Shown: in pieces, positions 33,716 to 62,028 of the stretch | How positions within the stretch are numbered: the stretch's first letter is position 1 | Layout: each line of letters starts with the position of its first letter | Source of the DNA: Polytrichum commune | Lineage: Eukaryota > Streptophyta > Polytrichopsida > Polytrichales > Polytrichaceae | DNA length: 64,000 bases | Reading direction: 5' to 3' | Assembly: GCA_950295325.1 (NCBI GenBank) | Contig: OX485808.1 | Span: 11,782,501-11,846,500, forward strand | Translations under genes and position numbers: made by a program | The notes under the pieces: model-generated | The model's database searches: none | What the model saw: only the letters and a program-made list of their open reading frames with translations | What the model was told of the DNA's origin: nothing

Positions 33716-33718
33716 CTA
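33710..33718 (-). promoter_or_regulatory. Leaky-type stop UAG CAA UUA between upstream ORF and RT
   Basis: On the minus strand the upstream ORF ends CAT TAG. The next codons CAA TTA continue in the same frame into RT with no other stop. UAG-CAR-YYA is the established tobamovirus-type readthrough context in plants, and this is an exact match. It would let a minority of ribosomes make the fusion with RT, as gag-pol needs. Confidence 0.65.
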
Positions 33719-34400: not shown

Positions 34401-34885
34401 ACTACTACAAAAACATGGCTTAATGTCTTGGCACAATTGACTATCCATGTTTATTTAGCTGAGGTAGCCCGACCTCATAGTCAGGGTGGTTTTTGTGACT
34501 GACCATAGTCCCAAATCACCCTTGGTTTTTTTGACTCAACAATCTAATCGCACTTATTGACTAAACATAGTCCACAAAGTCAGAGGAGGCATACATTATT
34601 GGGAGCGAGCAAACTATGCATTGAATATGTTTTTTTGACTCAAGACCCAATCACACATTTAGCCTAACTACGGTCTTAAAAACTTGAGGGTTCATACATT
34701 ATTGGTAGCAAGCAACCTATCTATTGCATATGTTGTTTTTTTTACTCAGTAATTTGTATGCATGCATGGCACATGATCCTACATAAAGTTTGGGCATATC
34801 AAATACAAATTGAATTAGAAGCATGGCTATGTGCACCTTGTAATAACTACTTTGTACGTATGAGATACACAAGCCGGTATGACAT

Positions 34886-36415: not shown

Positions 36416-36614
36416 CTGCCAAATTTTGAAATTAAATAATAAAGTGTAAAGTTCTCAAGTCAACCAAGACAAAAATAAAATGTTTTGAAATTTATAGTAA
36501 AAAATGGTTATTTGGTCCATTGCTAACCTCAAAGTCTCAAAAATTTACTTTATAGTATGCAAATAGTTCTTCTCCTGCTTTGATAGGCCTAGTTGACCTA
36601 GTCATTACATATCC

Positions 36615-41887: not shown

Positions 41888-42186
41888 AAACCCACAATGG
41901 GATGGTCACCGAATCAACAACCCAAAATGAATTAGTATCCACGTATAAAGAGAAAAAAGGGTCAAAGGCAACCTGCACCTGCAACCACCACCAAAACTTA
42001 TGGTCTGCTGGTCATTAACCCAGCCTCACCACAAGTGAAAACAAGCACCGCCCACTTGGTGCACAAACAAAGGTCCCGTCGGTCATTAATCCGACCTCAC
42101 CTCCATAGTACCCTATTACAATCTATAACAACACAAAATGGGGCAATGCCGACAACTGTCAGCAATACAACAGGGAGTGCTATCTT

Positions 42187-42425
42187 GTGAGCGGTGAGCG
42201 ATGAGCGGTGAGCGATGAGCGGTGAGCGATGAGCGGTGAGCGATGAGCGGTGAGCGATGAGCGGTGAGCGATGAGCGGTGAGCGATGAGCGGTGAGCGAT
42301 GAGCGGTGAGCGATGAGCGGTGAGCGATGAGCGGTGAGCGATGAGCGGTGAGCGATGAGCGGTGAGCGATGAGCGGTGAGCGATGAGCGGTGAGCGATGA
42401 GCGGTAATTTGTGAGCGGTGAAGAA
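42187..42425. repeat. 14-bp satellite (GAGCGGTGAGCGAT)n at the left end of the MULE
   Basis: About 16 near-perfect units of GAGCGGTGAGCGAT directly inside the left inverted terminus, built from alternating 7-mers GAGCGGT and GAGCGAT. The right terminus has a shorter, more diverged version in inverted orientation (57307-57383). Probably an expanded transposase-binding repeat. Confidence 0.9.
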
Positions 42426-42429
42426 AACA

Positions 42430-43030
42430 AAATATTTGGTAATAGGACCCCGAGTATCCTATAACCGTGGCCTAAAGAAATATTTTTTTAGGGTTCAATA
42501 ATAAGAAGATTGGGGAGGACAAATAATATGAATGCTAAATTGCAAGTAGTGAGCAATAAAAAAGACCAATATGTACACGACTCGGGGTTGCTAGTATGTG
42601 AGCATGCGAGCGTGAACATGTGAGCCTTCAATTTTTTCCCGGTTATGGTTTGTAAATCCGTTGGGGGCCTATGACTGTGGAATTACATGTAAGGGTCTAT
42701 AGTCCAAATGAACAACAAATGAGAATGTTGCTATAACAATTTTGTACTAAAAATGAACTAATATACATTTAATTGTTGAGATAATAATAATGTAATTGGA
42801 GACAATGTGTAAGCAAACTCATGTTGAAAACAAGTGTAGCATGTTAGAATGTCTCACTATAATACACATCAATGTAAAATTTAAATACATCATAACACCA
42901 TCATGAGGGTGACATTTACGAAGTCCAAAACATAAAGAACAACAAAAATAGATTGTAGATATAAATCGGGTAGTAAATTAAAATTGTTGAAGTTCTTGGA
43001 AATCAAATTTCAAAAATCAAATCATGAATA
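42430..43030. other. Non-coding MULE interior downstream of the methyltransferase gene
   Basis: AT-rich, no ORF. Contains TTAGGGTT near 42489, which also occurs at the matching distance inside the right end. Likely the 3' untranslated and terminal region. Confidence 0.4.
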
Positions 43031-43035
43031 CAAAC

Positions 43036-46000
43036 TTAAATATCGTCGGACTCAGATGCACTGAGTTCAAAATAAGCACATACTCTAGTATCATAATATC
43101 TACGAGGTGAAGGTGAAATTGAAGATGAAGTAGATGAAGCATTAGCATAAGCTTCAGCTAAAGCCTCAACATACACAGGGAGGCTCTGAGGACTAAGAGA
43201 GGGGCTTCTCAATAATCCACGGTGCCGATAAAATGACGAGATTTGTATCGGCGATGGATTCATCCAACTACAAACAACAAACCATGTATTAGAATATGTA
43301 ACAACAAATTAGAATACAAAATCTAGAATTTGCAATTGAAGTTGTTGAGAAAAAAACAATGAAAAAACTTACTCACATAAGTTAAGAAGTGCAGCGTCTT
43401 CTATTGGAGTATCATCATCAAAGTCCATACCATCGCATGAGGTATCATTTGTAGGTGTTTGAAGAGGTTTTAGTACATCATCAAAGAGTTCGGCATCACT
43501 TTCTAATGCTAGAATATGACGATTAGATGAATGAGCCGCTCTAATAGAAGAACCTGGATGAAGCAAAACATTAATTAGAAAAATACGAACATTGAAGTAT
43601 GAATTAAAAAACATATGAACAAATAATTGGATACTGTAATATACAATACCTGTAGAAGCAGTCATGTCTGCCACAATACTGCCTACAGGACTCAAACCAT
43701 GAACAAATAACTTCATTAAAACTTCAGACTTCTCCTTTGCACCCCTCCATGGCTTGCCATCTCTTTGTCTACATAATTGAGTTTCCATAGTAATAGAGTT
43801 GAAGAGAACGTCATCTGTGGCTAAATCGACCTCAGGAATTGAAGGATGCATGGTGATCAGAAGTTCTTGAGGTTGCCTCGCAATGGGAATTGAAAATGAT
43901 CGAACCAATAACAAAGCCTTGAACTTCAAAGTCTGAAAGTCAATATAAAATTGAAATTAAAAAATATACAACACATAAAAACAAATTCAAATATGAACCA
44001 ATCAAAATGAAATGTCATAATTGCTACTTACATTTTTGGACGGATTCATAGGATTTGCCAAGTGCAAGGAATTAATGATAGTCCACTCATCCTTGATTTT
44101 GAACTTATAGTTCTTGAAGAATCCTGCCACTTCTCTCTTCACGGTGTGAGGCCAAACCCCCCACCCTTAAGCGTCCGTAGTCCGAGTAGTGGGTTTGGGC
44201 TCACATTCCTCCGCGGTATTGGATTTGGACTTGGATGAGTCCATAGTGCAAGGTTCACCCTTCAAGTGGTCTTGGATTTAACTGGAATTTCACTTTTAAC
44301 AACTCAATGTACGATTTCAATACGTATGTGGAGAATGCACAAGTTAACTATGTTATTTTAACCTCCTTATGCTCGGGTGCTATTTTGTCTTTGTTTGCTT
44401 CTAACGTCCATCCGGCTGCTTTAGCTACACAAGCCCTTAAGGATATCCCTCTCCTAAATGGAGTCCGTGCCGTTGACTCTATACTACCACTTGAACTATC
44501 ACTTGTGTATTCCGTATCGCTACTATAAGAGGTCTCACTTGGTGTCTCCATACGTACATAAGCCTTTAAGTATTAAGAAATACTTATGTGACTTATGTCA
44601 ATCTCTCCCTCGCACCTTTGGTCTTTGCTTCCTTTGTCTTGCCATCGCGAGAGTGCTCCACATTCTCCATTAAGTTGTGCACGTGGTTTATTTTTAAAGA
44701 GAGGATGCAAGTGTTAAAAAAAACACTATTCTCTATAGTCAATCTCAAATACATTTACTTGTGAAAGCCACACATAACACTAACTAGCATAATGTAACTA
44801 ACTACTTGTCTATGAGCTAATTAGGTAGGCTATCTACTAAGCTCCTTCATGAACCCATCTCTTTACTTTCTAATTACATAAACCTAGCTCCTTCATAAAC
44901 CCAGCTCCTTCATAAACCCAGCTTCTTAGCTTCTAACTAAACAAACCCAGCTCCTTCATAAACCCAGCTCCTTCATGAACCCAGCTCCTTAGCTTCTAAC
45001 TAAACAAACCCAGGTCCTTCATAAACCCAGCTCTTTACTTTCTAACTAAACAAACCCAGCTCCTTCATAAACCCAGCTCCTTCATGAACCCAGCTTCTTA
45101 GCTTCTAACTAAACAAACCCAGCTCCTTCATAAACCCAGCTCCTTCATGAACCCAGCTCCTTAGCTTCTAACTAAACAAACCCAGGTCCTTCATAAACCC
45201 AGCTCTTTACTTTCTAACTAAACAAACCCAGCTCCTTCATGAACCCACAACTTTGTAGTTGTAATCCCCAACTACCTCACTAATTATTCAAGCCCTTAAC
45301 TAATCTTCCTACCTAATTTCCCTAATTCTACTAACAACCCCTTTCTAATCACACAATTCTTCTCTAATCCTAAAATCCTAAAATCCTAGAGAGGAGAGGG
45401 GGAGAGAGAATTTCCTAACTTCACTAAGACTAACTAATCCACACAAGTATATTTTTGCACTTATCACAACATCAAGTGCTCAACTCTTAAACATGGAACT
45501 TGCAACCACGTGTATTCAAAACATGAACTTTAAGTACCACAAATTGGAATCATGAATTAACTTTAAAATCCTTCACGTCAACACTAATTCTACCAAGAGG
45601 TCAAGCCCTCTTCAAGGCTAACAAGCCTTGGCTCTCAAACTAAAAACTAAGCACACACATGTGCTCCAATATGGCTTCCCACACCCACACTTATAACTCG
45701 TGGGGTGCCTTGGAGCACAAAGGAAAGAGAGGATGAGTGAGGGAAGAATGAGGGATTATATAGTAAGCTTGAGGGGGTGAGCACCCTCAAGGCTCACGAT
45801 AAGCCCTTGAGATTTCCTCCTACTTAGTAGGCACCAATCCTATCTTCTAAGCCTCCCTCCCTCAAATGATCAACAAGGATCCTAATTCGAACATTTAACT
45901 AGCCTTGGCTTTCTACCTACCACACTTTACCAAACTTGGGATGCTTCAACCCAAACTTAGCCTCCTTCGCTTTCCGCCGCCATAACTTTCTCCCCTTACT

Positions 46001-49000
46001 TTCCCAAATCGTCGCTCACCACTTAATTCAAACCACGATGCTTAACTCGTGATTTGATTGGTGCTTTGAGAATTTGCTTATCCTCCACCTTGCATTCTTC
46101 CTTGGGCCTTCCCCATTAAGTGGCCATGATGAGGTGGTCCACTTGTGCGCTCCATGTGATCCTCCATTCATCCCAATTCGAATGCACTTGCCTCTTGAGT
46201 CACTTTGGTTGTCTCCATCCATTTGTACTAGCCTACTCACTAACTACTCAATCCAAGTTCTCCTTACCTATCCTCATTCACTCAAATCCTTCCGAAGGTA
46301 AAAACACAATAACAACTCACATCCTAGCCTCTTACAACATGGTACTTCTAAGACTAACATTTCACTCTTTTTATATTTTTGTGAAGTAACATGCTACTTC
46401 AAAGTGCATCAACTAACGTTTCAAGGGTCTAAGACTAAATGTGGGCACCCTTTTGGGCTCACACACGGCAGAACTGTCAGGATAAAGCAAAAGGAATGCT
46501 CCATCATCATGAAGATAGGTAAGAGCAAATGCCATCAATATGTTGAGAAAACTTGGAATGTTGGCATTCCAAGGGGGAATTTGAGATGGCGGATCCGAGA
46601 CACCTGGAACCCGAAGACCATCTGGGTAATCCGCAACAATGAGGTCCACAGCAGGTTTCTTTTGCAATTGGCCATCAAAAAAAAATTGTCTACCTTCACC
46701 AACCTACAAAGATAAAATATAAATATTACAATTCATGAATAAAGACGACAATTAAAAATATAAAATAAAATAACGTAACAAAATACGAGTGAAACTTTAT
46801 AAAACTTTAATAAAGTAAAAACTGTAAAATAAAATGAACTCACCTTTGATAGAAAAGCCACAATGTCGTCATATGGTGCACGAAATGTACCTGTTTGCTT
46901 CTTATCCTCGATAATCCTCACAAAAGAATCATTCAAGATTAAATCCGAAGATGTATGATTTGCAGGTAAAGGAGGCAAGATATTCATCATACCTCTAAGT
47001 TTGGGAGGCATATCCAAGGTAGGAGAAAGGGTTGTTTTCTGCCGCTTTGAAGTATGAAACGTTGCCTCTAGATTTGAAGAAGAAGGTTCAGTAACTACAA
47101 GGTTGTTGAGACTGCTTTGAATTGGAGCATCCTCATCGCTATCATGAATGAGGAGGATTGGTCTTTTAGGCTTAGATTTTTTTTTTTGGCATCTTGGCTG
47201 CATCCTCATTCATTATAGAAGGAACAATTTTAGTTGTACCCTTGAGGGCGGGTTGAATGGAATCTCGAAGGGCAATATCAAAAGTGGGAGGTGATTTAAG
47301 AGGACAATCCAAATACCACCCACATTTTTCAAAATGCACAGGATCCCAAGATTTCATGATCCCCTCTGTGAACATGCATTCTTCACTTTCGATATCCAAA
47401 TAATTAGCCAAAAAAATGGGAGATTTGGAAATGGCTTTCGCAGGAAATAAGACATATTTGAAGTACCTATAAAACACCCTTCGCATGGCCGGATAAAAAT
47501 TGAGTTGCTTGTCAATGTTATGATTTTTGTGAACTCCCTTATCCACACCGAATTCACGAAAAAATGCAGTATCCCACAATGATATGCGCATTGCCTCCAC
47601 ATAATCAAAAATAGTGGGCAAAGGATCCATACCATCTGGAAGGTAGTTGATGGACACATGCATATCAGCCACAGTAGCATCAAAGAGCTTCTCGGTCTCA
47701 ATAGCCAACTGCCAAATACAAAATAAAGATTAGAAGAATTAAATGATTGAAAATAAATTAAAAATAAATTAAAAACACAGACCAAAAATAAATGAACCAA
47801 ACATAATAGAAGGACAAAAATTATCACATGAGCCCACCAAGTAGCTTTATGAAGCCACTTAGGAAACTCTATATCATTGAATTTTGGTTTCGGAAACTTG
47901 AGAGCCTCACGAAGAGCAGGGGGACTGTTCCACCTCTCAAGCCACTTAATCTTCATAGATGTGTCAATTGCCGAAGTTGCTAACATCCAAAGTTTTTCTT
48001 GAGTCATCTCAGGGTTCTCATCGTGAGTTTCATAATGAGACTTCACCTGCTCTAAGAACATAGGAGAATGTTTAGGATCCGCAATGGGAAGTTGTTTCTT
48101 CAATTCCAAATGAGAAGTCAATCTCACCCTCTCAACAGCTTTGGAAACAAATTCATCTACTGCACTCGACGTCCAATGCGCAGGATCAGGATATTTCTCA
48201 TAAAATTTCCTTTGAGCAGTAGCAGCAGCATCTCCCAACTCTTGCTACACCAACGAAAAAACATATAAGAGTATGAATAATCACACACTACAAAAATAAG
48301 ATGCAATAGAAAATATAGTTATAGAAATCGAAATAAAAAGAAAACAAAAATCGTGAAAAACAAATACTTCAGAAAAAATAACCTGGTATAGAAATCCATT
48401 AAGAGCCTCAACAGTCAAAGTAAACCAAGTCCTATGTTTGGATTTTTGTTTGGCATCAGCGGCAGTAAGATCTTCTTTGGAAACAAGTTTCTCAAAATAT
48501 GAAAGTGGTTGTCCAGCAATGCTTTGAATGCGGAAAAGCTTATGAACAAGATTGGTACAAACATGAGATTTTTCGTTCCTCCTGTCAAAACAAAACATCC
48601 AATGATAAGCAAAAAAAAAAAGATATACAATAAAAAAAAAACTAAAAAAAAAACCAAAAAAACCAAATAAATAAAAAGAGAAGAATGAAGTAATTACCAA
48701 TTGACTTCATGTAAAGCTGCCAACATGGTTGCAATATCTCCTTTGACGTCCAAAATAATACTTTCAATAGCATAATGCCAAACCGGATCATGTGTGTGAT
48801 CTCGATTAATAATGGGCAACCATGCTTGCAAACGGTGATTTCCGTCCCACACCATGAACATTTTCCCAGAAAAAACTTTGAGGTCCTCATCAGCTTGCAA
48901 TATTTTTTCAAAGGCATCATTAGCCCTCACCCAATTTTCACTCCAAGATTCAATGATACTATCGGTAACATCTACTGTTTTCCCCTCATTGTTTTCCAAG

Positions 49001-50778
49001 GCCACATAAAAAATCCCATTGCCCTCCATATAACCACAAGCAACAAAATGTGCAGCCAGGTTCATAACGTCATTTTTTAGAAAAGGCCTTACATTAGGCA
49101 ATGCAATCATTCGACATAGTGGAATGTTGAGTTTGATTTTGCCCTTGGTTGATACCTCAACCGTTCAAGACGGGAAGATGTGTTGACAGTTTCTTTGTTA
49201 AAAAAATGCATGCAATTGCATTTCCAATTGATCTTCAGAAAGATGTACAACTTCCAAATCTAAAGCACAAAACATATCACCCACTTGAGAAACAAAAATA
49301 AATCAAAAGAAATATATACATAGGAAAGAAATCATATATGCAAACTAAAACAAAATGAAAAAACATTAAAGAAAGTGAGAGTACATATAAGAGAGAAAAC
49401 CACATATTCCCAAAAAGTCTAAATTTTGAATATGGGTGGCCGTTAACGGCCACTCTTCTTGGAGAAAAAAAATGAAGGAAATGAATGCATACACACATGC
49501 ATGCATACATGTAGAAACAAAATTTGAAATATGAATAAGGGTGGCCGTTATACGGCCACCCTTTTTGAAGCCGAAAAAAATGAAAGAAATGGGAGTGTAC
49601 AGGTAGAGAGAAACCCTTATGAAAAAAAATCCGAAATGTAAAAAAGGGTGGCCGTCAACGGCCACCCTTATTGAAGGACAAAAAATGAGAGAAATGGGTG
49701 TATACATGTAGAAAGAAACCCTTATGAAAGAAAATTTGAAATGAGGATAAGGGTGGCCGTTAACGGCCACCGTTATTGAAGGACAGAAAATAAGAGAAAT
49801 GGGAGTGTACATGTAGAGAGAAACCCTTATGAAAAAAAATCTGAAATGAGAATAAGGGTGGCCGTTAACGGCCACCGTTATTGAAGGAAAAAAAATGAAA
49901 GAAATGGGTGTGTACATGTAGAAAGAAACCCTTATGAAAGAAAATCTGAAATGAGAATAAGGGTGGCCGTTAACGGCCACCGTTATTGAAGGACAAAAAA
50001 TAAGAGAAATGGGAGTGTACATGTAGAGAGAAACCCTTATGAAAGAAAATCTGAAATGAGAATAAGGGTGGCCGTTAACGGCCACCGTTATTGAAGGAAA
50101 AAAAAATGAGAGAAATGGGTGTGTACATGTAGAAAGAACCCCTTATGAAAGAAAATCTGAAGTGAGGATAAGGGTGGCCGTTAACGGCCACCCTTATTGA
50201 AGGACAGAAAATGAGAGAAATGGGAGTGTACATGTAAAGATAAACCCTTATGAAAAAAAATCTGAAATGAGAATAAGGGTGGCCGTTAACGGCCACCCTT
50301 ATTGAAGGAAAAAAAAATGAGAGAAATGGGTGTGTACATGTAGAAAGAAAACCCTATGAACAAAAATCCGAAATGTGAATAAGGGTGGCCGGTGACGGCC
50401 ACCCTTGTTGGAGGAAAAAAAAATGAAGCAATTGAGTGCATACACGAAGAAGAAAACACATATGGAGAAGAGTCTGAAATTTCAAGGACAAAAAATTTAA
50501 GGAAATGTGTGTATATTTGAAGAAAGAAACACATATACTCAGAAATATAAGATGCAACAAAGGGTGGCCGTTAACGGCCACACTTTTAGATGAAACAGAC
50601 TACAACACAGAAGTGGGCATCATAGAAAAGGTGGCCGTTAACGGCTACCCATTTGGAAGAGAAACTCACCTTCATTTGAGTCGCTTTCCAGAGTTGCAGC
50701 TTCTTTGTCGCTCTTGCTCGTTTTGTCTATGTGCCCACGTCGCCGCCTGGAACTTGTACCAGCATCTGCATCCTCCAT
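43036..50778 (-). CDS. ParB-like / N6- or N4-type DNA methyltransferase-like gene, nine exons, split by an LTR-like insertion
   Basis: Exons (minus strand, all GT-AG and in phase): 50778-50670, 49259-48698, 48581-48383, 48244-47828, 47708-46844, 46703-46464 plus 44139-44032 (one exon, interrupted), 43932-43650, 43553-43373, 43267-43036; roughly 1,060 residues. Exon 2 has MVWDGNHRLQAWLPII, like the ParB/sulfiredoxin fold. Exon 6 has VDLIVADYPDGL in the place of motif IV (DPPY). Exon 7 has GKPWRGAKEKSEVLMK then GSIVADMTASTG (motif I), and exon 8 has NRHILALESDAELFDDVL. The IV-before-I order fits class-beta amino-MTases. ParB-MTase fusions are known in bacteria and phages. PILLIHDSDEDA in exon 5 resembles a SUMO-interacting motif. 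Single-base indels at T7 (49200-49206), near 49160 and A11 (about 47177) break the frame. Confidence 0.65.
44145..46463 (-). mobile_element. LTR-like element, copy B, inserted in a methyltransferase exon
   Basis: Minus strand: begins TGTGAGCCCAAAAGGGTGCC (46463) and ends GGCCTCACA (44145). Flanked by CACGG at 44140-44144 and 46464-46468, a perfect 5-bp target duplication. 2,319 bp. Homologous, in inverted orientation, to copy A at 27727-30438, including the TATA-like region (45750-45770) and the RGISLRACVAKAAGWTLE ORF (44551-44348). Removing it and one CACGG restores the host exon in frame (SSA / VKRE). Confidence 0.85.
44880..45248. repeat. AACCCAGCTCCTTCATA-type tandem array in copy B
   Basis: 17-bp units AACCCAGCTCCTTCATA/G are arranged in higher-order blocks with TTAGCTTCTAACTAAACA spacers, about five blocks. 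It occupies the position of the unrelated 48-bp array in copy A. Confidence 0.8.
49430..50650. repeat. 105-bp tandem array built around a 20-bp palindrome, in intron 1
   Basis: The palindrome GGTGGCCGTTAACGGCCACC or a close variant recurs twelve times. GTGGCCGTT starts at 49436, 49541, 49648, 49753, 49858, 49963, 50068, 50174, 50279, 50385, 50564 and 50631. The first ten are 105-107 bp apart. The sequence between is AT/GA-rich with GAAATGGGTGTGTACATGTA. 105 is divisible by three, so minus frames stay open across it (239 codons at 49366-50085), but these lie within the intron of the methyltransferase gene. Confidence 0.9.
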
Positions 50779-51321
50779 GGTGCGCGCTCTTGCTTCTTGC
50801 GTATGTTGTTGCCGCCGCACTTCGAAAGAGGATGTCTGAAGACATTACGAAGAGTATGGCTTCAAGAGATTAGGGTAAGTCGGACTCTAAAAAAAACAAA
50901 TAAAAAAAAACAAATAACAATTTGGTAGATTTCAGTCTATGGAATCTTTGCTATAACTTTTTCAAATATCCTAATTAATTTCCACAAAAAATCTAGTGCA
51001 TAGATTTAAGCCTTGCCATTCAGTCCATTTTTTTCAGAATTATTGGAGATAATATCAATTTTACATAAATCGTCAAAGTCTACTAAAATTAATATGGTTA
51101 GATTTCCTGCATAAAATCTTCATGTTTTGAAGATTTTAGAAGAATCTAAGATGCTCTAATTGTTTTTTGGCTCTAAAACATGCAAAACAAAATTATTTTG
51201 TTCATGCTATATACCGTTGGAATCCTATTTTCGGTGTGCACAATATAGTATATATTATATACCTCTAAATTGATTTTCATTTTAAATTGCTTCTCCTATC
51301 ATTTTTTTCGTACAACTTACC

Positions 51322-52124
51322 TCCAATTCCGCCTCAGAAGATTGTTCTTCTTTTTCGTATTGTGTGGCTTGCTCTTCGTCGATGCCTTTATCATAATCTT
51401 CCTCCTCTTCATCTTCTTCATTGCATTCAGAGACGATATGTGGTTGAGTTTCACATGTAGGAGTTTGGTGTTCGAAGAGATCTTCCGTTATCATTTCGCA
51501 TGCCACAATATCTTCGTACGTCAAATTCCTTATTGTACCTGATAGGTCCACTCCTTTCATTCGAGGAATACGTCTATTCATTCTAGCCCTTGACAATTGT
51601 CTCTTACTTGAAAAACGAAAACTACTTTTTTGCCTACTTTTTTTCCTACCCTTCACTGGAGTAACCACTGCTAACATGAATAAATGACGTTCTTTTACAT
51701 TTAAACGCATTCAGCTACCCTCTGCACTACATTGTTACTCTCAACAACATACATTTCATGGATGTTAATAATGATTCGGCCACTAAATTTATGAACTCCA
51801 AACAGAAGCCACGGTCTCAGCATAGATAAGGAGGCTTCATGAAGGTGATGGATTTGCTAGAAATTTTGGTTCTTCAAAAGAAGATCGCCAACGTCACATT
51901 ACTAGCACCTGACAACATAGATGTGTTAATACCCATCATAATTCAACTAAATACATACATAATATAATACAAATAAAAATTATACAATCAACCATATGAA
52001 TATTTCGAACAAGATAAACAAACAACATCTTGTTAAGGAATACATAACAAAATAATTTCAAATCAAACAATTTCAGAAGCTGACTTACCTTTTTATTTCT
52101 TCTGTTTTGTGAACTCGTCTTCAT
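51322..52124 (-). CDS. Probable 5' exons of the methyltransferase gene, or a separate small nuclear protein
   Basis: The ATG at 52124 gives MKTSSQNRRNKK followed at once by a perfect donor (AAG|GTAAGT). A second coding-like stretch (about 51660-51322) is basic then acidic: VKGRKKSRQKSSFRFSSKRQ, LSGTIRNLTYEDIVACEMI, ECNEEDEEEEDYDKG, ending GAG|GTAAGT in phase 0. An acceptor at about 50821 (ATGTCTTCAG) would join it in frame to exon 1 of the methyltransferase gene (TSSFEVRRQQHTQEAR...). The link between the first two pieces is out of phase in the simplest model, so an exon may be missing. No domain recognised. Confidence 0.4.
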
Positions 52125-52129
52125 TTCCG

Positions 52130-52876
52130 ACTCCGAAATACCATGGTCTGCATGCTCTCTGCACCTTCATCGTCCTCCGCCTTCCTAGTATGTCTTCTTT
52201 TCCGCCTCACTAGTGTTCTCTCTACATGTTCCACTATCATTGTTATCTATGATATATCTTCTACCACTCCACTTTCATACACTTGTTTAGTGTTTAGAGC
52301 TCACTTAAACCTAGCGCACATTACGATCATCAGTGTTGCAATTGGCGTCCAATGATCAAGTTGTTTTAACGCGTCTTTTACTCTGCTTCTATTTTTATTA
52401 TATCCGCCAAATTTCTCTGATATCCCAACCTACCACATTGACTTTGTTCTATTTATAATGGCCAATCATTTACTTTGCCGGCCAATTTTAATTGTTCTTG
52501 CATCTACATCCAGCATACACAGTCGTATTTTAAAACTCTGCCAACTTGTTTATTATTTGATGCCGTTTTCTCCATGATATCCGTGCCCGCATTTCTCCCA
52601 TGTGATAATCTTATATTAGACAACTCCTTTGTGGGTTCAAGTTTCCTATGGCTTAGTTTCTAAAGGAGATATTTTTTGGGATCTGATTTAGGATTCTATA
52701 TCTTCCTTGCGAATATTCTCTGTCTACTATTATGATCTGTCTTCTTTTGTATTATTGGATGCTATGGTATCACCTCTTTTAATTTATATCCATTATTATA
52801 TTCTCCATCATTCAATACAAAAGCGATGTTGATCTAAGATTATTGTCATGTGTTGTTCATCTTTTCCTTCTTCTCC
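52130..52876. promoter_or_regulatory. Divergent intergenic region between methyltransferase-like and transposase genes
   Basis: About 750 bases without ORFs of interest, pyrimidine-rich on the plus strand, between two outward-facing starts (52124 minus, 52877 plus). Likely holds both promoters. A shared promoter is inferred from geometry only. Confidence 0.45.
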
Positions 52877-55800
52877 ATGGCTACCATTAGAGCTCACGAA
52901 TCTTTTGTTCCCTTCATTTTGCCACTTCAAGATGATGGTCATGTCAATGTCTCAGAGGATTTGCTTAGTCTGAGATTCAACCTCCAGATAGGAACCATGT
53001 ATTTAGAGCAGGAGATGTATTCTGTAGATGGAGAGGTATATGAAACGGTTTTGGTTCAAAAAAACAGAACCGAGGTTGGTTTTATGTGGATCTTAGGACC
53101 TGGTTCATTTAGGATAATAGGTCTTTATGAATCTCAGATGCAAGCTTCAACTGTCATCTTGACAAACGAATCCGGTACATCCACCGTTCAAATTCCCTAT
53201 GTCGCACCTGTTAAATTTGAACCCACTGATGACTGTGTGTTTGTGCTATCAGATTCGGAAGATGACATTTGTGCATCTGTTGATCTTTCAAACACATCGC
53301 CGTTTCCATTTAAAAGTCTTCATTCCACTTCTTCACAGCTTCCTATACATGTAGCCAAATCTCCATGCGGTCCTATGTACAAGAGTTTGGTTCCCCAGCT
53401 CTCACCTTCTCAACGTCCTCCACTACACCCTTCACCTTCATCTATAGGGTTGACTATCGTTGATGCTTTGAAGCTTACAAAGTCTAAAAAAAGATCAAAG
53501 TCAGATCTCGCATCCATTGATTTTGATAGTATAGATGTTCATGATGTCAAGTACTTACCATCTTCTTTTAATGGTGATGTTTTGTTTCTCTTACCCCCTG
53601 TGACAGTTAAAGCTCCAAGTACGTATGGCCGCTCAATGGACGGCATGGACAAGATGTGCGACGGTCACCCTTGGTGCACCACCAAAACCACCAATATCCA
53701 AAATGATTTTGGATTGTCCTTCCGGCGCTCCACTTGTGCTGGTCATCTCCAATGTCCTAATGACTACTGTGATTACATGAATCGCAATGGGGGCCTCCGG
53801 AACAACACTGAATGGGCCGGTTCAACTCCTCTCCCATTTGCTGTGGGTAATGTTCCTCCTTCTAGGTCCACTGTCGAGTGTAAGGTATGTCGTTGCACAC
53901 CTATGTGCATTGCTTTATGTCATGCTCGAATCCTATACATCCATTCCACATCTGTTGGAATGTCCAGGTCTTGCATTCATATTGGTGTACATGATCACCC
54001 TGTGGCCAATGGCACATGCCGTGAGTCATTGGACATGGCATACCAGTGCGTTGCAAATGAAGTATTGAAAACACCCACAGCCAAAAATTCAGCCATAGTT
54101 ATGGCAGCAAGCAAACAATTCTTGGCCGATTACCTTCTCAAATCTCCCGCAAATGTCGAAGGCCATCACTTGGTTGGTTCATCCCTAGAGGTCGTCATGG
54201 ACAAATTCAGCACTCTTGCGTCCCCGAATTGTCGTAACTTTGTATCCGGATCAAAGCGTTTTTTGCGTAGTGGAATGGGAACTATGGATAGTATTATGGT
54301 ACTCAAAGACCACTCTGCTTTCAAGTTCGTCCATGGTAGTCGGTTTCCAGGGCAGTCAAAGGACAAAGTGTTTGTTTTCAAGATGTCTGTAGACCTTCCA
54401 GGTAGTGGTGTGGAGCTTGTGAAGAGGATGCAAGTCGGTGGGGACATGGAGAATTCATGGATTATGTTTGACCATGTCAAACGTTTGAAGGACTGGACGA
54501 CCATGGCTTGCCATGTGTACGACAGTCGATACTGTAAAGTGTTGACTATTGCGTGTTATGACATGCAATCTGAAGATGGTGCAGCACAAATTCTCTTTTG
54601 GGAAAATTTGAATAATGTCATGGCAGAAAATGGTGTACCACACGTAAACTTCAAAGGATTTATGGTTGATAGTGCTCAAGCTAATTGGAATGCGGTGAGG
54701 GCGATTTACGGGGATGGTGATCCAAGTCTACCCATGGTTGCACGCGAGCGTACATGTCTTTTCCATTGGTCTGCAAGCTTGGATAAGGTGACCCAAAAGT
54801 ATATCAAACCATCCTTGCAGTTTCAACACAAGCAAATATGCAAGGATTACAAAGACGCAAAAACAATGGACGACGCCGAGACCAAGTATCATGTGATTCG
54901 TTCTTGGTGGTTGTCATCCGGAGCTGCCTCAGAAGAAGGCATCCTTGGCCTTTCAGAGTGGTTGGGTTTTTGGCACTTTCGTTACAGACAATGGGGTGGT
55001 CATATGCTATTTGTAAGTACATATCAAATTTCATTCTTCAATGTCATTCATTTTTCTTCCACTGTTATATATATCTTCTATTTTTCTTATCCTCATATTT
55101 GTGTGTTGTTCATAGGATATGACAATAGAAGAACGTGCGGAAATGCCAACATGCAACCTTGCAGAGACTGTACACAACAAATGGCTTCAACAGTCCGGCA
55201 ACAAGATGACTTGTTTATATGAAGCTACAGTGGACGACATGATTCGTGCCTTCATGCAAATTGCAAATTACCGGACATGGTTGAAAGGGGGGTCTGATGG
55301 TAAAGGTCCTGATTCGGCATCCTTGAAAGTCAAAGCGGCTGCCAGGTGTGGAGATCCAAAAATGTTGGCCGATGCCATGAAGTCTTATCCAGGGGCAGAA
55401 GACGTCAACACGAGAGATTGTGCATTGGATGGGTCAGAGCTCTTTGGTTCCACCAAACACAAACTCAACCTACCACCGGGTGCTGATTGTGACTCTCATC
55501 GACCCGACAAAGTGAATTATTCCATTCCTCGTCCCAACACCCGAGCAACTCGTCAACGCATAGAGGAATCGTTGAGTTCTGCAATTCATGGTGTGGCTCA
55601 TACTACATCCGTGTTAGAGACTGATTGTCTTGCTTCTAAGTGGCACATTGCAAGATTGCCATCCAACTCAGCCAAGCGTTGTTGGGCACTGCAGGCCATT
55701 ACAGGGACTATGTGCAATGCCAAAGTCGGGACTGGGAAACATGGCACACCTGCTCCAACATACAAAGGGCTCAGGAAGGAATTTCGCTCTCCCAACAATG

Positions 55801-56483
55801 TGGAGTATGAATTTTGGTTTTGTCCTGACGACATCAAACGTTGTGTGAGTGGCAGTAAGAAGAAATATGTGTTGGATTGGCCTATAGTACCCAACACGTG
55901 GCCAGTGAAGATAGGTACCAATCTATCGAGAGAGGAGGTTTTGGCACTTGAAGATGCTGGATTTCAACTACAGCAGAGGGAGGCATTGTCTCCTCGTCGT
56001 AGGCTTTCAACAATCGCAACTCTTCCCATCCCTCGATTGCATTTTTCTATGCCACCAAACCCAGACGCCCACCCTACATTCAGATTTGGGAAGACAGTTC
56101 GTCGTAATCCAACAGCACCTCTGGCGGATCACAAAAACAAATGGGAGAGCGCCGGACTCATGGAAGGTTACTATGTGGTTGGGGTCACTGCCATTCCATA
56201 TCCGGGCTTTGGAGTGATAATCAACATTGTCTCCAAGCAGGATATCACCTACCATGTCACAATTGGCGATATCCCGCATTGCACATGTCCAGATTTCACG
56301 AAAATGTCCTCTCATGCATTGGGAAAGAAAGGAAAATGGGTGTATTGTAAACATCTTTATTATGTGTTTAGATTTTTGTGCAAGGTGGATTACGAGAGTG
56401 ACAAGTTCATTCATGCACCTACATATACCTATAATGAGGTCATGCGACTACTTGAACTTGCTGGTATTGTAGAATGTGAGTAG
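52877..56483 (+). CDS. Mutator-like (MULE) transposase with GCM/WRKY-type zinc region and SWIM finger, two exons
   Basis: Start ATG at 52877 (TCCATGGCT context); exon 1 ends 55012, intron 55013-55115 (GTAAGT...CATAG, phase 0), exon 2 runs 55116-56483; about 1,167 residues with no internal stop. Residues about 115-130 are CVFVLSDSEDD, a SUMO-interacting-motif look-alike. About 255-385 is a Cys/His-rich region (CDGHPWC, TCAGHLQCPNDYC, VECKVCRC, HIGVHDHP) of the WRKY-GCM1 type known in MULEs. About 480-700 is the MULE core, with GFMVDSAQANWNAVR and ERTCLFHW. About 1100 is a SWIM finger (HCTCPDF...WVYCKHL). It catalyses cut-and-paste transposition. Appears intact. Confidence 0.8.
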
Positions 56484-57180
56484 TATTGCAAGTGTTCTAT
56501 TAAGCAACATATATTTGAATGTCAATAAATGACATGTTTTGGTTTGGATTATTATAATAAAAATTAGCAGTGGACTGAAAGTATTTCGAATGATTCAGTA
56601 ACTTCATTTTTATTTAGACTGCGACCCAACCATGTATGGTTTAATTGATTCACACGGATAAATAATATCATGTTTCTAAAAATAATTAATAGTTAAGAAG
56701 ATTCTACGCACATCCGCGTAGTAACGTCTTCTTGGTATCCGCCTATAGATTATTCCTGCTTTATCACTAGCTTAATTTGGGATAGCACCAGTCAATGTAA
56801 CCAACCGGATTCGAACCCGGGTTGATCCAGACTTAATACCAGTCTCTTACACAACTCGCATCCACAGGCGGATGTCTCAAAACCTAGTAGCTTCCTACAT
56901 ATTCACTATTTCTAATATATAATTTTCTTTCTTTTGTAGATTATGGGCCTTTATTCAACCCGTGAGCAGTTTGAGTGGCTCACAATTATGGCACCGACAT
57001 ATATGTATAATGAGGTTATGCACCTACTTGAATTTGCTGGTGTTGTAGAATGTGAGTAGTTGTACAAGTGCTAGTTGTAGCTACATGTATAAGGATGTCA
57101 ATATATGACATGTATTGGTTTGAATTATTATAATAAAAATCAGCAATGGATTGAAAGTGTTCTAAATGATCCATGGAAAT
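56400..57180. repeat. Direct duplication of the transposase 3' end
   Basis: The last codons and trailer of the transposase (from APTYTYNEVMRLLELAGIVE through the stop and about 110 bases) recur at 56993-57170 (APTYMYNEVMHLLEFAGVVE, same stop, same GTCAATAxATGACATG trailer). Between them lies about 400 bases containing a tRNA-like piece. The second copy has lost the rest of the gene. Confidence 0.8.
56800..56885 (-). mobile_element. tRNA-derived SINE-like fragment
   Basis: The minus strand carries a perfect B box, GGTTCGAATCC (56807-56817), and a weaker A-box-like stretch about 45 bases upstream (GATGCGAGTTGTG). The anticodon arm and T stem do not fold as in a real tRNA, so this is better read as a tRNA-derived repeat. 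Confidence 0.4.
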
Positions 57181-57306
57181 AGGGCCCTTTCACTTGTGCT
57201 TCATTTAAAATATTGGCAATTTATAATTGAAAATATGCAATTAATTTGTCAAAAATTTGGTTGTAAACCCTAAATCTGTGTGTCTTTACTAAATTTGGAT
57301 TCATTG

Positions 57307-57396
57307 CTCATATGTTACTGCTCATTGCTCATGTGTTACTGCTCACCGCTCACCGCTCACCGCTCACTGCTCATCGCTCATAAGATAGCTTCCCTC
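57307..57396. repeat. Right inverted terminus and short satellite of the MULE
   Basis: GCTCATTGCTCATGTGTTAC, then four CTCACCG/CTCACTG-type 7-mers, then TCATAAGATAGCTTCCCTC. It is the inverted, shorter counterpart of 42172-42425. Confidence 0.8.
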
Positions 57397-57406
57397 GCAA
57401 TACAAC

Positions 57407-58160
57407 CCGCCACGGGGGAAGGTACCAAAACAAAAGATAGAAAACAATACAATTTTCAGCACTGGATCCTCTTCCCCAAACAACATTTAAACAAAAATTG
57501 AAAGCGACCGCGACCAACCGGCACCCGCCTGCGGTTGGTCGTCAAAATGAAGAGCCCCTGTTGCTTAAGAAAAGAAAATGCACATCTCTCATTTTCCCAC
57601 CACTACCTAAGAATCTCTCCTCACAACAATGCCGGGAATATGTGTTGATAAACACAATTCGACCTTAATAATAATTTATTTTAGGCCGAACGTAAATTAC
57701 ACATGCCACCCAATTCCCAATAACATTTCTCTCGGAAATTTTGTACAACACCACCCCTAAAAGAAATCCCAAGTATGTTTAATACTTCATCAGAGCTTAA
57801 GTTTTCTTCCTTGTATTCTTGATTAATGAACCCAAGAAATTAACCTCTTAGAGAGAAGAGAAAGGATTAGAAATTGTAGGAATCTAAAGTAATTAATTAA
57901 TTAATTAAAATTTTAAAAAACCGGTTTTAATTAATTAATTAATTAATTAATTAAAGCACAAAATTAAAACAAAACAAAAATAAAATGTAAACGGTTGGAC
58001 TTGCAAACACCTGTTCCCAACCAATTATGCCCAACAAGCTCCCCGATCGGGGAGGCAACCTCGACCCCTTATGCCCAAAAATCAACCCGATCCCTTGGCT
58101 GCCAGGGAGGCAGCCAGGACCTCAACCGATAATGCTCAAAAATCTCCCCTTCATATTATC
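57407..58160. other. Non-coding flank, probably continuation of the gypsy leader/LTR
   Basis: No gene. Holds an (AATT)n microsatellite on both sides of a CCGGTT core (57888-57955) and a perfect 16-bp palindrome CTCCCCGATCGGGGAG (58039-58054). It should follow on from 42171 in the pre-insertion sequence. Confidence 0.4.
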
Positions 58161-58164
58161 TGCC

Positions 58165-58353
58165 ACCAAGCCAAGGTGGCCTAGTTGGCTGGCACCCTGC
58201 GCCACCCTTGCAGAAAGTTCCCGGTTCGAACCCGGGCTCCGGCGGGTAGCGAGGCGGGCAGCGCCACGGGTAGCGAGGTAGCCACCGAGCAGAGGTGGCC
58301 AGGAGCTCCGGCTCCCAGAGCCGACTCTTGGTGCTTCTGATTTTTTTTTTTTT
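58165..58353 (+). mobile_element. tRNA-derived SINE
   Basis: A box TGGCCTAGTTGG (58177-58188) and B box GGTTCGAACCC (58223-58233) at tRNA-like spacing, then a GC-rich body with repeated GGGTAGCGAGG, ending in T13 (58341-58353), a Pol III terminator. No target duplication identified. Confidence 0.6.
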
Positions 58354-58359
58354 GTAAAA

Positions 58360-59000
58360 TTGTTGTATATATATTTTTTAATGAATGAATCGCTTTCGAA
58401 TACAACAAGAATAGTTCCTCACAATTCAATGTTGTGAATTCAAGCTTGCTAGCAGTCAATCAACATAAAATTCTGTGGAGAATTCAACACCTTATCACCA
58501 CGATTCACCTTCAAGTGACCTTCACAAGCAAGCATTCTTCATGTTGCTTCGCAAATTCGCGGTGTTCTCGCTCCGGAACTTCACAACATCGTCACTCCTT
58601 GTCTTCACGCCCTCCCTTGCGCGTTACATCTCAAGAATGAAGAAGAAAACATCAAAGATGAAGCATTCTTGCCAAGTGAGAAGGAAGAGAATCAAACCCT
58701 TGCAAGAGCTCTAAATCTCTTTTCAAATGCACACAACTAGTCAAGCTATCTCTCACTCCACCAAGGGAGAATCCAAGAGTGTAAGTAGGGGAAGAAGAAC
58801 TCAAGATTTATTGCAAAATCATGCAATCTATACCTCAAACAAGCTCTCTCCACACACTAACTCACAAGACTTGACTTGGCAAGAATGCCAAGCCAAGGAG
58901 GAGGCTCCTCACTTAGGAGCCTTCCTCTCCACATCTAGATTCATCCATCCAAATCTAGATGGATGAAACCCAACGGATAAGGTGCGGCCGTCGACGCCGC
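58360..59000. other. No gene recognised; right edge of the nest
   Basis: Short plus ORFs (68-79 codons) with no motif. An inverted repeat around 58935-58965 (CATCTAGATT...AATCTAGATG) lies close to the junction with the COQ6 exon. Confidence 0.4.
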
Positions 59001-59006
59001 ATACCG

Positions 59007-59195
59007 TGACAGAAAGAAGACCAATATGGCAATGATGGATATCTTGGATGGCTTCCAAAAGATTTTCCGGGAGATTTTGGACCTTTTGACATAGCTCGTG
59101 CAGCCGGTTTCAATGTTGTGCATCTGTTGGGCCCTCTGAAGAAGTAAATTATCTCTTATGCCATGGGTGGTCGGAGACTGTGGTCAAATCACTAG
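59007..59195 (+). pseudogene. COQ6: COQ6 last-exon fragment with frameshift and stop
   Basis: Reads YRDRKKTNMAMMDILDGFQK, then shifts frame to DFPGDFGPFDIARAAGFNVV and HLLGPLKK, a TAA, then IISYAMGG and a terminal stop. This is the C-terminal tail that follows the exon at 26715-26928 in COQ6 proteins. About eight residues between the two exons are not found, so the junction at 59005-59010 is probably the insertion edge. The frameshift and TAA make it non-functional. It marks the right-hand boundary of the 32-kb transposon nest. Confidence 0.65.
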
Positions 59196-59199
59196 GTGA

Positions 59200-61171
59200 G
59201 CACAATTACCATAAATATCAGAAGTAGAGTCATTTATGGAGATAATGAAGTAGCTAGAGAAGCTCACAGCACAATGCGTTGTATATAGAAATGGTCATTC
59301 TGGAAGTAGTTTGAACATCGGAGTGAAGGAGTTGGACTTTCAGGGTGGGTTGTCTTTCTAGCTTAGGTTGATCAAATAGTGTCCGTATATGAAAGTCTTC
59401 TTTGATGGAAAGAAAATTGTTGGAAAATGGCCGGCTAGACTCGACACATGTTTAGGTGTTAGTGTTTACCATGTGGAAGGACTGATACACACTCGGTCTT
59501 TGCTGTAAAGGAAGACTGTAATAGGATTTGGCAAGGAATTGAAAATTGCCTTTTGATCTTTCAGATTGTGCTATAGATTGTCATCTATTACAAAGGCAAT
59601 ACAAATTAAGGTTTCACACACCTGCAGCTTACAAAGGTTCCCAATACGACTCAAGGTTTTCAGAAGGGCGTTGTCAACCCAAATTCATATTTTTGGAAAG
59701 CTCTAGCTTGTGACCCTTACAAACTCAAAGCAATCTGTGGCCGCTATTTGTTAATAGATCATAGTTTGTACAGAAAAGAGATTTCCATTATGTCAATTCT
59801 CATAAGATTAAACTACTACTGTTGTAGGTGCAGCCGAGGTTCGTTACCAATCATTATGCATCATCCACATTCCCCCGATTTGAAATCACAATAATCAAGC
59901 AATGAAAGATTCATAAGTTCAAGACTTTTGGTCGTTTATGCACCTAGAACAGTGTTGAAATATTGGAGGCACAACATTGCATGAACAATCCTGCTTTGGA
60001 TGACCTCAATGGTTGTCATGAATTTGAGGCCCTCAGGATAAAAACATAGAATGAACAGAGGAGGGGAAGGGATATTGTGCTACTTATTCCAATTTACTGT
60101 GTACTGCATTAATTTTGGAGCATCCACATGTTTGAAATTGGGTGCAGTTTACACCAATTTCAAGCCTTTATCAATTTTGGACATGATGATAATGAATGTG
60201 TAAATCAATCCTCTCGCGTCCAAATCAATATGTACGGAGTAATGTTGGACGCCCATCCAACACCCACCCAACACCCAATAACAGCCACCCACACTGAGCC
60301 ATGCACCCTAAACAGCCACCCGGCACTAACCCATCCACCAAGGATGCCCACCCAACACCACCCGACATCCACCCGGCACTGCCATGTCCACCGAGGACGC
60401 CCACCCGACCCCACTTGACCCCCACCCGCTGTCATGTAAAGAGTTATGCTAAGGGAAAACACCGGGCTCCTAGCTGCAACTAGATCAAATTAAGGACGAG
60501 AAAATCCAACTCAAAAACTTGAAAAACTTGATGAAAACATGAGAGTGTGGAAAACTGTTCAAGGAGAGAGAAGACTTCCTCTTCCCCATCTTTATATATC
60601 CATTCGCATTTTAGGCATCCATACTCCTAACTTAAGACAACTCACCTTTTCTTTAGCAACTTCCTATAGATAACTCTCAACTATCTAACTCTTAACTACT
60701 AACTTAAGATACCTCACTATCTTCTAAGCAACTTTCTATGGATAACTACCAATCAACTAACTTTTAATTATTAACTTAAGACAACTCTCTATTTTCTAAG
60801 AAACTTTCTATGAATAACTATCGACTATCTAACTTTACACAATCGACTATCTCAAGACAACTAGGTGATCACTCTTAACCTTCCTTTATACTATCTATTC
60901 TATGAAATCAAACCAAAAAAAAAATTATTTTTTTATTTTTTTATTTTTTTTGTAAAAGTTTGCTTCATGACATGAATTTTTTTGCTTCACGACACCGCCC
61001 CCCGCCAACACTTGCCAATCGTCGGTGACGCCCCCCGTGACGCCCACCCGACCCCCAAGTTTGTCCACCGTGCACTAACCTGTCAACACCCATGCCCGAG
61101 TGAACACTGGGCCACCCACACACACCGAACAACCCTCACCCATTGAATGCCACCCACTGACGGGTAACGAA
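59200..61171. other. No gene recognised; CCCA-rich and AT-rich stretches
   Basis: 59200-60120 has broken frames without a family match. 60245-60440 is a CCCACCC/CCACCCGAC-rich low-complexity tract (spurious Pro/Thr/His ORFs). 60590-60900 has degenerate repeats of ACAACTCACTATCTTCTAAG and AACTTTCTATGGATAACTA. T-rich runs lie at 60920-60955. Confidence 0.45.
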
Positions 61172-62028
61172 CAGGGTTGTCTATCGCGACGTCCTGCCAC
61201 CGTCATGACGTCATGACATGTCGTGTCGGGGCGGACCCCTCCGTCACGACATAATAGGGTCCACGTAGGGTCATACTAGGGGGAAGCTAGTAGGGTGGGT
61301 AAAATACTTACCTTCTTGCCAAGGTGGCATCCAATGTGGCAGAAAAATCCGACGTGGATGTGCATATTTCCCTTGCCAGGTAAATCATTTTGCCTTTGTG
61401 TTTATCATTCTGTTAAAATCAAAGTAGTAAAATATGGCAAATGAGGGTGTGGGGGGGAGGGGAACGGAGCGGACGGGGACGGGGACGGGGGCGGGAACGG
61501 ATGCGGACAGGGGGAACGCCGGATGGGGTACGGATGGGGGCCGGATTGGGGTTTGGATTGGGGGGGGAGGGGGTTCGGATTAGGGGGGACCGGGTTCGGA
61601 TGGGGGGGGGGAGGGGGGTCGGATTAGGGGGGACCGGGTTCGGATGGGGGGGGGGGGGCGGGTCGGATAAGGGGGGGAGGGGGTTCGGATGGGGGGGGGG
61701 GGCGGGTCGGATGGGGGGGGGGCGGGTTCGGATGGGGTGCCGGATGGGGGAGGGGAACGGGGGAGGGGAACATAGGGAACGGGGGGGGGACGGGCGCTAG
61801 TAATTTTTTTCCCACTTTACCTCTACTTTGCTGACATGGCACCATACGTGGACATCGTAAATCCTACGTGTCCTGATTGGGGTAATGTAATTACACAAAA
61901 AAATACGGTAAAATTCAAGTTCGTCAGGATAAAGACGGCATCCGGCATAATGTCGTGACAGATACGTGTCGTGACACCACGACATTATGTCGGGATTAGC
62001 CTCCGTCACGACACAATAGACAACCCTG
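61172..62028 (+). mobile_element. Complete hAT-like non-autonomous element (857 bp)
   Basis: Termini CAGGGTTGTCTAT (61172-61184) and its exact inverse ATAGACAACCCTG (62016-62028). Flanks GTAACGAA (61164-61171) and GTAACAAA (62029-62036) are an 8-bp target duplication with one change. CAGGG ends and 8-bp duplications are typical of the hAT superfamily. Subterminal GTCGTGAC/TCACGAC words recur, and a 12-bp inverted repeat CATAATGTCGTG lies at 61946/61978. The centre (61440-61795) is a G-rich minisatellite. No transposase. It shares its first 270 bases with the truncated copy at 4573. Confidence 0.85.

Follow-up and report, generated by a model that had tools for sequence, protein, structure and literature searches.

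The window analyzed here is a 64,000-nucleotide stretch of the genome of Polytrichum commune (GenBank assembly GCA_950295325.1, contig OX485808.1, forward-strand positions 11,782,501 to 11,846,500), and all coordinates below are counted from its first letter. Within this window, the span 42172–57396 is a single transposon with inverted ends and a flanking duplication. It holds a transposase gene, a methyltransferase-like gene in divergent orientation and an array of palindromes between the two, and it probably represents a family of autonomous, Mutator-like DNA transposons built of two divergent genes with GC-rich palindrome arrays between them. When copies of the element are compared, the methyltransferase-like gene and the arrays appear to behave as an exchangeable module of the transposon, changing jointly while the transposase hardly changes. 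The parts of the element, with e1 to e10 as the exon pieces of the methyltransferase-like gene, are as follows.

42162–42171, unstranded: left target-site duplication GCAATACAAC, with its second copy in the window solely at 57397–57406
42172–42186, plus strand: left terminus AGGGAGTGCTATCTT; an overlapping 20-mer is abundant genome-wide
42188–42405, plus strand: subterminal array of GAGCG-type repeats, 14-bp unit TGAGCGGTGAGCGA, 15.6 copies
43036–43267, minus strand: e10, the last exon read, 98.7% amino acid (aa) identity with the C5 copy
43373–43553, minus strand: e9, region of S-adenosylmethionine (SAM)-binding motif II (HILALESD), aligned to phage and plasmid methyltransferases
43650–43932, minus strand: e8, region of motifs X and I (IVADMTASTG); Pfam N6_N4_Mtase at E=0.048, hhalign 96.8
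44032–44139, minus strand: e7, exon part, unbroken with e6 in 21/21 database relatives and in the C5 copy
44145–46463, unstranded: insertion resembling a solo long terminal repeat (LTR; TGTGAG...CTCACA), with the duplication CACGG at 44140–44144 and 46464–46468
46464–46703, minus strand: e6, exon part with the motif IV position, VDLIVADYPDG (not DPPY)
46844–47708, minus strand: exon pieces e4 and e5, the frame between them broken near 47187 in the window copy
47828–48244, minus strand: e3
48383–48581, minus strand: e2
48698–49164, minus strand: e1, with the motif FMVWDGNHRLQAW (ParB/DndB-like in motif only); frame broken just upstream in the window copy
49432–50649, unstranded: array of about 12 palindromes GGTGGCCGTTAACGGCCACC with a 105-bp period, between the two genes
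52877–55012, plus strand: transposase exon 1; 63 genome copies scored, 26 of them stop-free
55116–56483, plus strand: transposase exon 2, with a C-terminal CxCx(n)CxH (SWIM-like) motif; the two-exon pattern recurs in L001
57382–57396, minus strand: right terminus AAGATAGCTTCCCTC
57397–57406, unstranded: right target-site duplication GCAATACAAC

The boundaries of the element are well defined. With both strands checked, the perfect direct repeat GCAATACAAC occurs at two sites in the window, and both flank the element. The two termini have the sequence GCTATCTT(G/A)TGAGCG in common, followed by GAGCG repeats, and their inverted orientation makes them a short, imperfect terminal inverted repeat (TIR). 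The left-end 20-mer had 776 genome matches with at most 3 mismatches, as against 13 for a reversed control. A previous sequence-only reading of this DNA had proposed a transposon at 42172–57396 with inverted ends running into GAGCG-type arrays and a perfect direct repeat on both outer sides, and had suggested a genome search for copies with the same ends. All of this held up. The search yielded two further full copies with window-type ends, each containing the methyltransferase-like gene and each flanked by a duplication of its own: GTTGCCCATT(G) for the C5 copy and ATCCTACAAG(G) for the C6 copy, referred to below as S2. The duplication is 10 bp long in the window and 10–11 bp long for C5 and C6, within the 8–11 bp given for Mutator-like elements in the relevant section of a survey of this group (PMC6446971).

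Joining the two transposase exons of the window copy gives a stop-free frame of 1167 aa. Compared with L001 (CADCWO010000080.1), an intron-containing relative with two exons from a collection of bacterial genomes, the proportion of nonsynonymous differences (pN) was 0.32 while that of synonymous differences (pS) was saturated at 0.80, and we therefore consider the transposase to be under purifying selection. L001 is assigned to a cyanobacterial bin of metagenome-assembled genomes, where it is most likely a contamination, and is too short to reveal a methyltransferase-like gene. The sequence-only reading had spoken of an intact Mutator-like transposase; the intact frame stands, yet no Mutator profile in Pfam matched the full window transposase, P0002 or L001 exon 2. 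A Transposase_mut match was obtained for 1 of the 16 members of transposase set A1 (E=0.18). The SWIM profile scored 13.0 bits (E=0.075) on window exon 2, against a cut-off of 19.6, and did not match L001, though CxCx(n)CxH is visible there. Given the 10-bp duplications and the SWIM-like motif, membership of the Mutator group nevertheless appears likely.

The methyltransferase-like gene spans roughly 49164 to 43036 of the minus strand. Splice signals are plausible for its ten exon pieces, whose boundaries were judged by eye from these signals and the reading frame. A divergent multi-exon gene had been proposed from the letters alone, and the matches of three exon pieces to 104 proteins bear this out, with the correction that the window copy is not intact. 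A 2.3-kb TG...CA insertion with the 5-bp duplication CACGG splits e6 from e7, and the frame is broken at further sites. In the C5 copy, which is free of the LTR insertion, window positions 44141 and 46464 adjoin. Since e6 and e7 are also continuous in all 21 relatives covering this region, the insertion interrupts an ancestral exon. The C5 copy has the window-type gene and arrays, with a stop in e1. The solo-LTR-like insertion itself (44145–46463) contains internal tandem repeats at 44840–45247.

The 104 relatives come from a search of public genome and metagenome data and have E values from 7.7e-47 to 3.1e-7, with 75 matching e1, 21 matching e6+e7 (one of these also e8) and 8 matching e8 or e8+e9. 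The full joined gene retrieved no homologue, probably owing to a length limit on candidates, while its exon pieces did. Pfam gave a weak N6_N4_Mtase match on the assembled window pieces (E=0.048), plus one match at chance level, and a better but still sub-threshold match on the relative P0146 (PF01555, E=0.00054, 20.4 bits with a cut-off of 26.7). Profile comparison was far clearer: against ten phage and plasmid DNA methyltransferases, hhalign returned probabilities of 96.8 (local) and 98.4 (global), whereas 20 column-shuffled templates never exceeded 1.1 and an unrelated template gave 0.1. The VDLIVADYPDG strand is aligned with the DPPY position, and TASTG and ALESD with the SAM-binding motifs. 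Homology to PF01555 covers the SAM-binding half. When the P0146 piece was compared with plasmids, the best 20 of at least 5000 records were all annotated as DNA methylase or methyltransferase (20/20, E 7e-4 to 2e-2). The motif order is permuted, with the catalytic half preceding the SAM-binding half, an arrangement also described for the N4CMT enzyme (in the portion of PMC8885841 consulted). These comparisons identify the C-terminal half of the predicted product as a relative of beta-class amino-DNA-methyltransferases of bacterial or phage descent, in agreement with the amino-methyltransferase-like motifs noticed earlier, and we infer that the protein binds SAM. A PDB search gave no match for the methyltransferase half and one chance-level match for e1 (E=1.3), and pattern scans of viral contigs detected no relatives.

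The N-terminal e1 is harder to place. The sequence-only reading had seen ParB-like motifs in the gene, and the underlying motif, DGNHR, is indeed conserved, each of its residues being kept in 73–74 of 76 rows. The domain assignment fared differently: hhalign gave 0.3 for e1 against nine phage ParB domains, no more than shuffled profiles can reach (up to 1.5), and ParB was not among the families shown by Pfam for the 76 e1 members. Instead, DUF5531 appeared in 15 members (best E 0.0046) and DndB, weakly, in 8 (best E 0.0011). DndB carries a DGQHR motif. NCBIfam and PHROGs yielded nothing convincing on the e1 members, and tblastn of e1 against phages found no match. We therefore dropped e1 as a ParB domain, the profile comparison being negative and the motif being all that remains.

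To what extent the two genes belong together can be judged from the copies in the genome (408 Mb, 64 contigs). Transposase exon 1 is present in at least 63 copies with 88–100% identity, all listed matches falling on seven chromosome-scale contigs and 26 of those listed being stop-free. For e1 there are at least 150 matches, with identities down to 43% (150 of 1212 candidates scored), and for e8/e9 there are 177; many of the diverged copies of both are stop-free. The methyltransferase-like gene lies within the ends in all three copies that were read over their full length (window, C5, C6). At 8/8 loci read far enough (window, C5 copy, S2, L057, L051, L054, L055 and L056), it is accompanied by a divergent transposase relative, with constant order and orientation. 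The relatives at L051 and L054–L057 match at 37–79% over the matched parts, and these five loci have tandem repeats between e1 and the transposase, mostly palindromic, L055 and L056 sharing one type. Arrays are also present at L052 and L053, where the reading ended short of any transposase and which are outside the eight-locus count. By position, a window-type module lies upstream of 7 of the 63 transposases, in divergent orientation and within 16 kb, with e8 at 6.2–8.9 kb. Downstream of 18 of the 29 high-identity e8 copies lies an exact terminus, and in 15 of these cases the distance is 1.26–1.30 kb. These positional counts are based on 64 of the 150 e1 matches (mostly ≥71%), 29 e8 matches (mostly ≥76%), 50 of 70 palindrome sites and the best 100 of 776 termini; among the rows omitted are C1:42491370, C53:15408, C1:54175388 and C5:34523499 for e1 and C53:28889 for e8. 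Transposase copies lacking the gene would have spoken against its being part of the element, and none turned up in the part read, which includes one of the other 56 copies in full. That one, S2, has a strongly diverged version of the gene at the same place.

Many further e1 copies, of about 80–86% identity and with a TGA, were seen by eye at about 1.7–2.2 kb from an exact terminus (e.g. C1:4051926 with C1:4054062, and C3:36371071 with C3:36369337). This class probably consists of abundant internally deleted derivatives that retain one end and e1. The equal size, 4187, of the contigs behind P0010 (a transposase match) and P0129 (a gene match) was set aside as evidence of linkage, as it may be coincidental.

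The palindrome array at 49432–50649 had not been on the feature list of the sequence-only reading. Its unit GGTGGCCGTTAACGGCCACC has 70 exact sites in the genome, compared with 0 for the control, and all 50 of the sites listed lie upstream of a copy of the methyltransferase-like gene, either at most 4 kb from e1 (43 sites) or at most 9 kb from e8 (7 sites). At 9 of 10 loci, palindrome coverage upstream of e1 was higher than in any of the 20 Markov shuffles, and a core, CGTTAACG, is common to the palindromes of the window, S2, L054, L055 and L056. The S2 arrays are of other types, namely AACCCTGTGCGTTAACGCACAGGGTT with a 64-bp period and GTTTGGGTCGANCGACCCAAAC, the latter type occurring also inside the transposase intron. 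About five GTTTGGGTCGTTCGACCCAAAC-type palindromes are found in the intron of L016, which is part of S2, and match those near the start of the gene. We examined 30 transposase loci for palindromes, 7 of window type and 23 others. Among the 23, the AACCCTGTGCGTTAACGCACAGGGTT type was present upstream in 22 and the GTTTGGGTCGANCGACCCAAAC type on the intron side in 22, while neither was found within 1.5 kb at any of the seven window-type loci, whose own array lies further away. Minus-strand loci were read in the opposite sense, the upstream type there being taken from the list of longest palindromes.

Most non-window-type transposases are 88–93% identical to that of the window. Between window and S2 (L049+L016+L050), the transposase regions are 92.6–94.1% identical at the DNA level, and yet the methyltransferase-like gene, in the same place and orientation, has only 42% identity in e1 (over 146 aa), with 38% for e3, 39–44% for e4, 32% for e6, 30% for e8 and 48% for e9 over the matched parts. 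The S2 gene shows exon-sized open frames, as seen without a gene model. Expressed for the transposase core (aa 431–712), the identities are 98% for the core versus 42% for e1 between window and S2, 92% versus 42% between L054 and L055, and 61% versus 67% between window and L051. Such discordant values do not fit a single shared history of both genes; exchange of modules between elements, or old coexistence with recombination, would fit them. A sharp break between window and S2 at the start of the transposase, suggested by blastn, was replaced by a gradual picture, as short words show the similarity fading over several hundred bases.

Given the standing association of gene and arrays, we hypothesize, with a probability of roughly 55%, that the methyltransferase-like protein is a self-recognition factor that binds palindromes in elements of its own type and counteracts silencing through DNA modification or occupancy, with an effect limited to that type. 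The protein would bind these palindromes sequence-specifically in the promoter region between, or shared by, the two genes. Once bound, it would modify or occupy the palindrome DNA and thereby keep the divergent promoters from being silenced, possibly as a form of self-regulation, and elements of other types would not profit. The sequence-only reading had regarded the methyltransferase as cargo of the element acting on element DNA. Its location inside the ends in the three full copies agrees with the first part, which we would now rephrase as a standing, exchangeable component that comes with its arrays. The second part, methylation of element DNA, is so far unsupported: motif IV is non-canonical throughout, the window copy is broken and the ParB part is unconfirmed. 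Methylation by the protein is possible, and it is unproven because the catalytic motif is altered.

Several observations weigh against this explanation or narrow its basis. Being adjacent, gene and array could change jointly through linkage alone, and the separate array in the intron is the sole argument that goes beyond this adjacency. The exchange is derived from pairwise identities rather than a gene tree, and the S2 type was read through the methyltransferase-like gene in one copy; of the 56 transposase copies other than those with a window-type module, one was read fully and 22 were covered for palindromes alone. Canonical motif IV ([DNS]PP[YFW], including DPPY) was found in 0 of the 21 e6 relatives, and the sequence is DYPDG in the window and C5 copies and QFPDG in S2. 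Furthermore, 11 of the 29 e8 copies had no exact terminus within 3.5 kb downstream among the best 100 of 776 termini. Stops interrupt transposase exon 1 in four of the seven window-type copies (L013, L014, L015 and L037), which, together with the stop in e1 of the C5 copy, makes the window-type branch look decayed. With respect to the arrays, L051 contains only a tandem GCCGG-CA-CCGGC motif and nothing that the strict rule counts as a palindrome, the core CGTTAACG is absent from the palindromes or repeats of L051, L052, L053 and L057, and one flank control (58000–61700) contains 74 palindrome bases. Finally, the S2-type transposase L023 (C6:42635836), with S2 palindromes nearby, has a 64% window-group e1 (C6:42624752) 10.6 kb upstream on the opposite strand, possibly through nesting or in a mosaic element.

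Two other explanations are less probable. The gene might encode a working amino-methyltransferase that places N4-methylcytosine (4mC) or N6-methyladenine (6mA) on the palindromes or along the element as a private mark, comparable to the half of a restriction-modification system that provides self-protection. The regions of motifs X, I and II align with phage and plasmid DNA methylases, the window palindrome offers a methylatable A and C in GTTAAC and its CG-rich arms, and phages have fusions of a ParB-type domain with an N6_N4 methyltransferase (L003, L009). We nonetheless regard this as rather unlikely: motif IV reads [DE]YPDG in 14 of the 21 relatives, other non-DPPY variants (DFPDG, EYLDG, EYRDG etc.) in the remaining 7 and QFPDG in S2, and a restriction partner was not recognized in the element. 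No better placed is the view that the palindromes are unrelated to the gene, being transposase sites or expanding satellites that co-change with it through adjacency. The arrays do adjoin the gene, and the fading rather than abrupt loss of window–S2 similarity upstream of the transposase would suit this view; however, the second S2 palindrome type is found in the transposase intron as well, remote from the gene, and different palindrome types occur even where transposase cores reach 98% identity, so that the arrays are unlikely to be transposase sites. More speculative again, and doubtful, is the idea that a plant-type DNA transposon superfamily uses a phage-type amino-methyltransferase as an exchangeable specificity module. 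Each module would recognize its own arrays and mark them with 4mC or 6mA rather than 5-methylcytosine (5mC) to give a private epigenetic identity, with elements swapping modules in the manner of restriction-modification specificities. A partition-like system, which would use a ParB-type protein and parS-like palindromes to keep up an extrachromosomal stage of the element, is very improbable. It could draw on the DGNHR motif of e1, on the resemblance of the palindrome clusters to parS clusters and on the phage ParB-methyltransferase fusions, yet it is contradicted by the negative ParB profile test, and a ParA-like gene was not recognized in the element, although no dedicated search was made. 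That the gene is a mere passenger, a host or bacterial gene captured by chance as in Pack-MULEs and of no benefit to the element, is least probable and largely refuted by its protein-level conservation over 104 database relatives, its constant order and orientation at 8/8 loci, where identity of the transposase cores is as low as about 60%, and the exon-sized open frames of S2, even though the window copy is broken and Mutator-like elements often gain further open reading frames or gene fragments (according to parts of PMC6446971 and PMC6431247).

Other features of the window lie outside the element. A tRNA-Gly (acc) is predicted at 58170–58244, just beyond the right end. Frames of a Gypsy-type retrotransposon occupy 30594–34450, one of them ending in what by eye is a PHD-finger-like segment, and a reading frame at 35084–36454 resembles a CACTA/TNP2-type transposase.

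The favored explanation, a self-recognition factor acting on its own palindromes, has its closest parallel in the VANDAL elements and their VANC proteins. VANC is not known to be related to methyltransferases. In the accessory protein studied here, the C-terminal half is a methyltransferase relative, and Pfam recognized no other convincing family. VANDAL elements of Arabidopsis are likewise plant Mutator-like elements with an accessory gene, and the sections of PMC5735166 consulted describe arrays of short motifs, repeated in tandem in non-coding regions upstream and in introns, that are bound by VANC and co-change with it, as well as hypomethylation. The array types of the Polytrichum elements similarly track the module types. 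The differences are that the accessory gene here is related to beta-class amino-methyltransferases, that its motifs take the form of long palindromes, and that binding and hypomethylation are reported for VANC whereas binding by the present protein is a proposal. Were the protein to recognize its arrays, the VANC strategy would have arisen a second time, independently, and the family would offer natural protein–palindrome pairs for studying how transposons distinguish self from non-self and escape silencing.

The findings point to a large eukaryotic transposon family, apparently recently active, that has a relative of bacterial or phage DNA methylases as a standing component. We found no element of this kind among the best-ranked open PubMed Central matches, a set that excludes subscription papers and preprints. 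The word methyltransferase is absent from the main text of the Mutator-group survey, whose accessory motifs, in the section concerned, include SET, PMD, FAR1 and others (PMC6446971), and from a 2026 review on plant gene capture (PMC13317346). Retrotransposons of dinoflagellates and charophytes have also acquired a DNA methyltransferase (DNMT) gene, and in the part of PMC5890265 consulted these encode C5-cytosine DNMTs shown to methylate; the element described here is, by contrast, a TIR DNA transposon with an amino-methyltransferase relative of putative activity. The N4CMT of bdelloid rotifers is, like the present protein, a eukaryotic member of the permuted N6_N4_MTase type with bacterial or phage kin, but according to the sections of PMC8885841 consulted it belongs to the host and combines SPPY with a chromodomain, as opposed to a transposon gene with [DE]YPDG or QFPDG. 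The conserved change from DPPY to [DE]YPDG raises the question of whether the chemistry is altered or a SAM-binding domain has been kept as a sensor or DNA binder. Lastly, in the phage fusions of L003 (an Anaeroplasmataceae phage, annotated as ParB-like) and L009 (a WO phage of Wolbachia, its ParB part by our own reading), a domain containing a G-H-R-type motif similarly comes before the methylase; those methylases have DPPY, and e1 of the element is without a ParB profile match.

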